A stretch of DNA of 64,000 nt from Dysgonomonadaceae bacterium zrk40 (GTDB lineage: Bacteria > Bacteroidota > Bacteroidia > Bacteroidales > Dysgonomonadaceae): assembly GCA_016916535.1 (NCBI GenBank), contig CP070276.1:1116001-1180000 (forward strand), in the 5' to 3' direction. The translations under genes and the position numbers were made by a program. Under the pieces are notes generated by a model that did no database searches, was not told the origin of the DNA, and saw nothing but the letters and a program-made list of their open reading frames with translations. Of the stretch, positions 2,014-49,672 are shown one piece after another. The number at the start of each line of letters is the position of its first letter. The stretch's first letter is position 1.

Positions 2014-2053
2014 AGAGGCCGTCTCATGATATCACATGAGATGGCCTCTTTAT
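2014..2053 (+). terminator. Rho-independent terminator of the catalase gene
   Basis: A 15-bp stem with one G-T pair (2014-2028 with 2035-2049), a 6-base loop, and a short T-rich tail. It sits directly before the composite repeat that starts at 2052, so the tail and the repeat share bases. Confidence 0.85.
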
Positions 2054-2171
2054 TGTGAAGTCGCCTCACACGACTTTAAATTACACTTTAATTGGGACGT
2101 ATCTGATTCTTAACTGCCTCGGATATGTTAGACGTATATTAGAACGAGATTAGAACGAGATTAGAACGAAA
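2052..2171 (+). repeat. Composite intergenic repeat, copy 1
   Basis: This 120-base segment has a homologue at 49371-49501. Shared parts in order: block 1 (2052-2074) with ATTGTGA, TCGC, TCACA and GAC at the same spacing; block 2 (2103-2121), CTGATTCT then TGCCTCG; and an 11-bp array from 2128. Block 2 starts 51 bases after block 1 in both copies, and the array starts 25 bases after block 2 in both. The array here has four units: a degenerate TTAGACGTATA, two TTAGAACGAGA and one TTAGAACGAAA. GACGTAT (2131-2137) and ATACGTC (2171-2177) form an inverted pair around the regular units. The function is unknown. It lies between catalase and dsbD, about 100 bases before the dsbD promoter. Confidence 0.8.
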
Positions 2172-2269
2172 TACGTCTCATCTCTTCAGGTTGTATGGGT
2201 GAAATGAACATTTTCATACCTCTTGGGGTTATTTCACAATCTGCAACCAATCCTTTTCACTGATTTCAC

Positions 2270-21768: not shown

Positions 21769-22089
21769 ACTATTCTTTTATCATTCATACCGGAAGTATT
21801 TCATTCAGAGCCTCTCGGATCCGGGTTATCGACTCCTGTATCCTCCTGATTTTTTTGCATCTGATCTAAACCCATTTTCAGGACGAGACAGGGTTCTCGG
21901 TGCCTCTATCCTTATTGTACCCTTATTGCACCCTTATATCCACTCCAATAATTATCGGAGTGGATATAAAGATACAATTACAGTGGAATAAAAAAAAAGA
22001 ACTCATGAACTTGAGGACCAATTGCAGGAACCCATCGATGATGATCATCGGGGTGAACGATTGAACTTCCTGTGCACTTCATCAAGTTA
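21769..22089. other. Intergenic region with hairpin and 11-bp repeats
   Basis: Both flanking genes are on the minus strand. I see no gene in these 321 bases. The notable content is the hairpin and repeat at 21917-21969; the rest looks like unstructured AT-rich sequence, including a nine-A run near 21990. Confidence 0.4.
21917..21969 (-). repeat. 13-bp perfect hairpin followed by 11-bp repeats
   Basis: TTATATCCACTCC (21934-21946) pairs perfectly with GGAGTGGATATAA (21957-21969). Read on the minus strand, the hairpin leads into AAGGGTGCAAT, AAGGGTACAAT and a third, degraded AAGGATAGAGG, each 11 bases. There is no T-run, so it is not a classical terminator. The layout of hairpin plus 11-base array recalls the composite repeat at 2052 and 49371, but the sequence differs. 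Confidence 0.55.
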
Positions 22090-45961: not shown

Positions 45962-49105
<3,144 letters not shown>

Positions 49106-49174: not shown

Positions 49175-49371
49175 AATTGACCAATTCTTTTACTTTTCCC
49201 TTCAAATAGCGTATGAAATGAGTACCGGTAAAACAGTTTTCACCCAAATTATGCAACTCATACTTTAAGCTGACACATTGGGAAAATTAAACCGGACAGT
49301 AGTGAAGACAAAACTTACTGAAATAATATTTTTTTCATAACGCATCTCCCCCACCGGGAGATGCGTTTTTA
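49175..49371 (+). other. Segment ended by an orphan terminator; possible small RNA
   Basis: The GH2 transcript already ends at 49174, yet a second strong terminator follows at 49341-49371. No open reading frame of note lies between. A non-coding RNA of up to about 190 bases ending here is possible. No promoter with a clear TAnnTTTG was found, so the alternative is that the hairpin belongs to the repeat element behind it. Confidence 0.25.
49341..49371 (+). terminator. Orphan Rho-independent terminator
   Basis: A perfect 10-bp stem CGCATCTCCC (49341-49350) with GGGAGATGCG (49356-49365), a CCACC loop and five T. The right arm contains GAGATG, also found in the hairpin before repeat copy 1, and the T-run leads straight into the composite repeat as there. 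Confidence 0.85.
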
Positions 49372-49501
49372 TTGTGACATCGCTTCACATGACCCCCATT
49401 TTGACCTAATCTTAATCGTAACTGATTCTAATTTGCCTCGAATCTATTAGAACGAGATTAGAACCATATTAGAACCATATTAGAACGAGATTAGAACGAG
49501 T
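49371..49501 (+). repeat. Composite intergenic repeat, copy 2
   Basis: Homologue of 2052-2171. Block 1 (49371-49393) with ATTGTGA, TCGC, TCACA and GAC; block 2 (49422-49440), CTGATTCT then TGCCTCG, 51 bases later; the array from 49447, 25 bases later, all at the same spacing as in copy 1. The array has five units of 11 bases (49447-49501): TTAGAACGAGA, two TTAGAACCATA, and two TTAGAACGAG-type. Like copy 1, it follows a terminator and lies upstream of a + strand gene, here susC. Confidence 0.8.
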
Positions 49502-49672
49502 ACCGAATGAGATCCAATCAAAATGAAAGCAAACAATCCAGATGAGAGAGAACTTCATTCATCTCAATATGATAAACGTGCGAACCTTGATCTATATATT
49601 TATATCACTCAATTTATGCATCTTTTCCTCTCTCTATAAACATCCCTGAAGATATTACCCATCACTAATATT

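Follow-up and report, generated by a model that had tools for sequence, protein, structure and literature searches.

Two intergenic stretches of the window, the 64,000-nucleotide piece of DNA analysed here, carry the same parts in the same order, and this raises the question of what kind of sequence they are. An ungapped alignment of the stretches at 2052-2171 and 49371-49501 keeps a single offset of 47319 from 2052/49371 as far as the first array unit (2128/49447). The two are identical at 85 of 120 bases overall and at 50 of the 76 bases ahead of the array, while the best rival position for this 76-base part, sought across the whole window on both strands, reaches 36/76. The likeness and the fixed spacing of parts described in the sequence-only reading are confirmed. 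Its array lengths of 4 and 5 units are also correct, copy 1 having one decayed and three perfect units and copy 2 having five. Within the window alone, TTAGAACNNNNTTAGAAC with up to 3 mismatches has 8 matches where 2.98 are expected, which is borderline, as many being found in 1 of 100 shuffles. The question is settled by the 3.47 Mb genome, where, at up to 2 mismatches, the three-unit pattern TTAGAACNNNNTTAGAACNNNNTTAGAAC yields 96 overlapping matches and the reversed pattern none. By domain search, the neighbours of copy 1 are a catalase gene (476-1981) and a DsbD-type gene from 2305, and those of copy 2 a beta-galactosidase gene (45977-49105) and a TonB-dependent receptor gene from 49874. 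The parts of the two copies, and of a related element of a second family (F2) in the window, are as follows.

2015..2048, + strand: copy 1, left terminator-like hairpin GAGGCCGTCTCA...TGAGATGGCCTC with T-run, an element end module (sequence; pattern match C1:1118015).
2052..2075, + strand: copy 1, block 1 (GTCGCCTCACACGAC), by eye like the ATTCGCYT box of other copies (alignment).
2096..2127, + strand: copy 1, block 2, the decayed inverted arm of the fold-back (reverse-complement match).
2128..2167, + strand: copy 1, 11-bp array of one decayed and three perfect units (TTAGAACGAGA) (sequence).
2168..2190, + strand: copy 1, tail, extent by eye (sequence).
21866..21995, - strand: F2 copy, a fold-back with a 25-bp stem and units ATAAGGGTGCA / ATAAGGGTACA / ATAAGGATAGA, the array at 21905-21937 (pattern match, fold).
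49339..49367, + strand: copy 2, left terminator-like hairpin (sequence).
49371..49394, + strand: copy 2, block 1 (alignment).
49415..49446, + strand: copy 2, block 2, the inverted arm (reverse-complement match, fold).
49447..49497, + strand: copy 2, 11-bp array of 5 units with spacers GAGA, CATA, CATA, GAGA (sequence).
49498..49520, + strand: copy 2, tail (GAGTACCGAATGAG), extent by eye (sequence).

In the window's own genome (G000; other G numbers are relatives or other genomes compared), the 96 matches were grouped by hand, with every array read, into 30 arrays of 3-7 TTAGAAC units. These make up family 1 (F1), of which the sequence-only reading had two members. Counted as chains with no more than one mismatch per TTAGAAC, the arrays have 5 units in 20 copies, 3 in 2, 4 in 2, 6 in 3 and 7 in 3, and the spacers between units in the 30 own copies are mostly GAGA (57) and CATA (57). 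A simple longest-ORF annotation places all 30 own arrays outside predicted ORFs; among the relatives' loci that it scored, L164 alone was flagged as falling within one. The own copies lie between convergent (10), tandem (11 and 6) and divergent (3) gene pairs, and a position upstream of a + strand gene, noted for both window copies, is thus not a rule of the family. When relatives' loci are included (54 in total, many orthologous) the counts are 18 convergent, 20 and 10 tandem, and 6 divergent. As raw counts, the left gene points toward the array in 21 of the 30 own copies, and at least one gene 3' end adjoins 27 of them.

Sequence shared beyond the core is seen in an alignment of 12 own copies that have different flanks. 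The other 18 own copies are outside that aligned set and many copies retain the core only, which would hamper present-day movement. The full-length F1 element is 276 bp, a length found exactly in 9 of 16 copies that were selected because their ends could be recognised (10 own, 6 in relatives, with L034, L149 and the IS-split L055 excluded). These copies range from 249 to 306 bp, the lengths being rough for four whose ends are poorly placed (3 or more mismatches), and none has a stop-free stretch longer than 42 aa. The ends of the element are GAGGCTGTCTCA and its reverse complement, with inverted ends GAGGCYGTCTCA; both ends are within 2 mismatches in 12 of these 16 picked copies, and terminal inverted repeats are not recognisable in many core-only copies. 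Each end is a terminator-like hairpin, often with flanking A- and T-runs. These hairpins have the shape of bidirectional intrinsic terminators and may act as such. Those beside the two window copies had been called unrelated; their sequences do differ (12/40 identical), but they occupy the equivalent place in the element.

The order inside the ends is an ATTCGCYT-type box (recognised by eye), the block 2 arm, the array and the tail. Block 2 had been taken for a separate block, yet it is the inverted partner of the array. When the 40 bases upstream of the array are searched in each of the 30 copies, its best 12-base reverse-complement match there averages 10.6/12; two control stretches give 7.2 and 7.6. 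The array thus forms one half of a palindrome whose other, inverted arm, block 2, has decayed. Among copies with at least 4 units, the preferred pairing register belongs to a single 11-spaced series in 51 of 52, as would be expected from the periodicity of the partner arm. Folding strength differs between copies and falls short of what stable hairpins at every locus would lead one to expect, which speaks against the mobile-repeat reading given below. When 17 F1 copies were folded as RNA and each compared with 60 single-base shuffles, z ran from +0.7 to -4.8, with copy 1 at -0.3 and copy 2 at -1.9. In DNA folding, copy 1 does not exceed chance (z -1.61, 14/200 shuffles) and copy 2 does (z -3.34, 0/200). 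The window copies are diverged members of F1.

The second family was discovered through matches to the right part of the F1 element. F2 matches F1 in the kind of ends and resembles it in the tail, but its unit is ATAAGGGTGCA and its inverted arm CCTTATTGCATCYTTATATCCACTCC. Its pattern has 64 overlapping matches in the genome against 0 for the control, grouped by hand into 29 loci. The copy at 21866-21995 on the minus strand of the window was overlooked by the sequence-only reading; its 25-bp stem folds with z -4.20 (0/200 shuffles). An F2-type left module precedes the own F1 copies L038, L040 and L055, which shows modules combined or nested. In G033 and G018 there are F2-like copies of about 200 nt that fold almost end to end (raw energies of -74.6 and -73.2 kcal/mol), their outer arms showing apparent further 11-base units.

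Within a single 400-kb stretch of the genome, a scan at periods 9-13 sought arrays that adjoin a reverse-complement arm; period 11 gave 12, and periods 9, 10, 12 and 13 gave 0 each. The 12 consist of 5 F1, 5 F2 and 2 with the unit GGGAGAGGAAT (L265, L272). One further locus, with the unit ATGAGGGGGTG (L263), was found using Tandem Repeats Finder. A GGCAC-type tail, with variants, is by eye common to L265, L272, L263 and many F2 copies. The same scan of other genomes gave 0 period-11 matches in G015 (100 kb), G013 (100 kb) and G034 (120 kb), with one match at period 13 in the G013 stretch. In G008 (80 kb) there are 2 period-11 matches, one of which is AT-rich low complexity; the other (L297:13166, GTAAGAACAAA units) is plausibly a further fold-back family in another species of the genus. 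Two other repeats of the own genome were seen in passing: a tandem 11-bp array, CAGACCCTATA, at L274:3986-4024, unflagged by the fold-back scan, and tandem CATTGTCCGT repeats at L058 (near C1:2987.6 kb), within about 180 bases upstream of an F1 copy.

Relatives were searched for exact three-unit F1 arrays, which are present in 5 of 61 genomes: 5 of the 37 from the genus, which is probably Proteiniphilum, and 0 of the 24 from the order's other families. Of 39 genus genomes, BLAST matches the 276-bp element in 11, 6 of them by the end hairpin alone, and F2 in 12, five of these (G000, G035, G033, G009, G018) with a match in the core. Among 393 sampled genomes of the order, F2 is found in one, the window's own, which is the sole member of the genus in that sample. 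In a collection of 84,980 species there are 47 stretches with exact F1 arrays, 20 of them from four relatives that have copies. The remaining 27 are scattered and by eye are without the fold-back and the blocks. Five Ruminiclostridium MAG stretches (L077, L087, L099-L101) have short 11-bp-spaced TTAGAAC arrays with two kinds of common flanking sequence, and are possibly an unrelated dispersed repeat. Two stretches from Bacteroidales and Bacteroidaceae MAGs (L097, L112) contain runs of TTAGAACTCAA / TTGGAACTCGA 11-mers that may be coding or another repeat.

For 21 of the 30 own F1 copies there is a counterpart with matching flanks in G035, G011, G009 or G005, on both sides in 15 cases and on one side in 6. 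Such matching flanks indicate that these copies are inherited insertions. Compared with G035 wherever it was present, the unit number is equal in 10 of these orthologous sets and unequal in 11. The copy 1 site is occupied in G035, with 5 units, and in G009 has a different terminator-like hairpin in its place. Copy 2 is absent from G009, where the flanks are 94% identical, and, as far as the left flank alone tells, from G035. In G034 the copy 2 site keeps a hairpin (GAGGCTGTCTCA-type sequence) and block 1, with the array missing. The site of a third own copy, L053, is empty in G009. None of these three sites is a clean empty site, the relatives being about 6-15% diverged and the intergenic sequence unalignable across the site. 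The description of the repeat as a possible spreading element is borne out by the 30 copies with differing neighbours and by at least one relative without a copy at each of the three sites. The elements are dispersed, inherited, vary by whole units, and have been gained or lost at single sites.

These features favour, with fair probability, a reading of F1, F2 and their kin as short, non-coding, non-autonomous dispersed repeats, a MITE-like superfamily within a single lineage that is probably Proteiniphilum. They resemble old mobile DNA of a kind known in general terms, though unusually built. As in MITEs, the elements are short and without coding capacity, have terminal inverted repeats, and occur as dispersed copies that are present or absent among relatives. 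No consistent target-site duplication was found at 16 copies (best lengths 0-5, no common sequence, with boundary shift allowed), and for this reason the elements are not classed as proven MITEs. GAGGCYGTCTCA has 23 matches in the genome. Apart from an IS-split F1 copy, no autonomous partner with exact GAGGCYGTCTCA 12-mer ends facing each other 1-5 kb apart was found, in a search for exact 12-mers that diverged partner ends would escape. The sole facing pair of ends in this range was considered as an autonomous element and rejected, the intervening sequence being an unrelated IS with HTH_Tnp_1 and rve domains inside an F1 copy. In this copy (L055, G000:C1:2685374-2686810) the IS sits in the left end hairpin, and the end is uninterrupted in the G005 ortholog, L172.

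If the elements are mobile DNA of this kind, the copies now seen dispersed among intergenic sites would have spread there some time ago, probably moved by the transposase of some IS acting in trans on the GAGGCYGTCTCA ends. Persisting copies sit in gene gaps, mostly next to a 3' end, and from their shape the end hairpins could act there as bidirectional transcription stops. The 11-bp arm, which is seen to differ by whole units between relatives, may gain and lose them through replication slippage or template switching within the fold-back, thereby homogenising the arm; the same process may account for the similarity of arm to arm. The unit sequence varies by family, with the 11-bp period and the fold-back layout constant.

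Alternatively, the arrays might be dispersed sites for a nucleoid, regulatory or partition-type protein that binds 11-bp units set in phase along one side of the DNA helix, the sites being kept for function. The restriction of fold-back arrays to period 11, out of the periods 9-13 scanned in 400 kb, is consistent with this, as are the near identity of units across loci and the occurrence of exactly 5 units in two thirds of the own arrays (20/30). The period has an alternative reason in the fold-back layout, however, and conserved binding sites would sit poorly with exact three-unit F1 arrays being confined to 5 of 37 genus genomes, with families of different units coexisting within one genome, and with unit numbers that are unequal in 11 of 21 orthologous sets. 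Phased binding is therefore considered unlikely. The idea that the arrays are independent minisatellites, alike by chance or through common slippage and belonging to no single family, finds some encouragement in the short 11-bp-spaced arrays of the same 7-mer core in unrelated genomes (the 27 of 47 stretches above). It is nevertheless highly improbable, in view of the blocks outside the array that copies share at constant spacing, the common 276-bp element, and the count of 0 for the reversed pattern.

The palindromic layout could also reflect a multicopy structured RNA, in which the fold-back is transcribed into a long hairpin, active or processed in that form, whose end is the right terminator-like hairpin. 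Full-length copies do carry such a hairpin at the right end, near full-length hairpins are seen in G033 and G018, and 89.9% of F2 stem cells are paired against 37.0-50.3% when the alignment is slid by 1-3 columns. The F2 stem, however, has 5 double-change cells where the shuffled mean is 2.8 (51 of 500 shuffles are as high), and its covariation score, equalled in 113 of 500 shuffles, is not clearly above them. Wobble asymmetry points to opposite strands for the two families (GU 108 / AC 16 in F2, GU 30 / AC 100 in F1). The fold energy is lower on the minus strand in 44 of 56 F1 cores and on the plus strand in 24 of 29 F2 cores, yet for the F2 consensus fold it is the minus strand that has the lower value (-17.9 vs -14.2). 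Searches against Rfam at gathering score yielded one tRNA only for the window and nothing for an F2 locus (L176) and an F1 locus (L053), for which a permissive E-value gave matches only far below gathering scores. Since the F2 wobble signal reverses in F1 and covariation is not clearly above the shuffles, the RNA explanation was set aside and is rated quite unlikely.

The reading as MITE-like repeats of one lineage adds at least 59 dispersed repeats (30 F1, 29 F2) to one Bacteroidales genome. It joins the minisatellite MITE and palindromic MITE designs, which are described apart in the literature compared. Loci that occupy the same sites in relatives with different unit numbers, or with none, offer natural experiments on how arrays grow and could be of use in strain typing. 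The common 11-bp period across families with different units makes a helical-phase reading of the arrays testable. A broader and more tentative proposal, which is rather doubtful at present, is that the elements represent a class of fold-back element in bacteria that is built up from 11-bp helical turns. Its arms would be polymers of one-turn units whose sequence is replaceable (TTAGAACGAGA, ATAAGGGTGCA, GGGAGAGGAAT and ATGAGGGGGTG, and in relatives TTCGAACGATA and ATAAGGCAACT), with period and palindromic layout retained. Were this true, retention of period and palindrome with a replaceable unit would imply a reader of geometry: turn-by-turn geometry would be read more than sequence, for example by a phased binding protein or transposase, a hairpin nuclease or an RNA duplex binder.

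Searches of the open-access literature found no miniature inverted-repeat or intergenic repeat element for Proteiniphilum, no intergenic 11-bp tandem-repeat hairpin of Bacteroidetes, and no bacterial intergenic foldback of tandem repeats. The view that no named element matches accordingly holds for Rfam at gathering score and for this literature, but the kind is known from BrickBuilt and BOX. The wider setting of prokaryotic MITEs has been reviewed (PMC10969869). In the relevant parts of its description (PMC3049150), BOX of Streptococcus pneumoniae resembles F1 in being composite, with fixed outer and variable tandem inner modules and stem-loops when transcribed, but boxB is there predicted to interact little with boxA and boxC, whereas the F1 array pairs with its neighbouring arm. 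The host of BOX is of another phylum, and the comparison is one of layout. The Foldback and Galileo elements are eukaryotic, far larger than F1, and have a transposase gene. Passages on these Drosophila elements describe long inverted repeats that, like those of F1, are internally repetitive, and report multiple transposase binding sites in the inverted repeats of Galileo (PMC3688188, PMC3573991). This likeness is best taken as an analogy of build, not kinship. ERIC/IRU, NEMIS, RPE and comparable palindromic MITEs of bacteria are also dispersed elements of about 100-200 bp with highly paired transcripts, but no tandem-unit arms are described for them under the word 'tandem' in the paper compared (PMC2229807).

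BrickBuilt, a MITE of Porphyromonas gingivalis, is the nearest system in both build and host group. The sections of its description covered (PMC4596501) give tandem 23-nt units bounded by a leader and a tail, short terminal inverted repeats, and 19 intergenic copies of variable array length. F1 is not BrickBuilt itself, as it is set apart by that description in both unit length and end sequence. BrickBuilt has 1 to 22.8 units of 23 nt, whereas F1 has 3-7 units of 11 bp; the BrickBuilt ends are of the GAGACCTTTGCA type, whereas those of F1 are GAGGCYGTCTCA and are themselves terminator-like hairpins. An inverted arm of its own units is present on the left side of F1, and none is described for BrickBuilt in those sections. 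F1 and F2 work like a minisatellite-type MITE.
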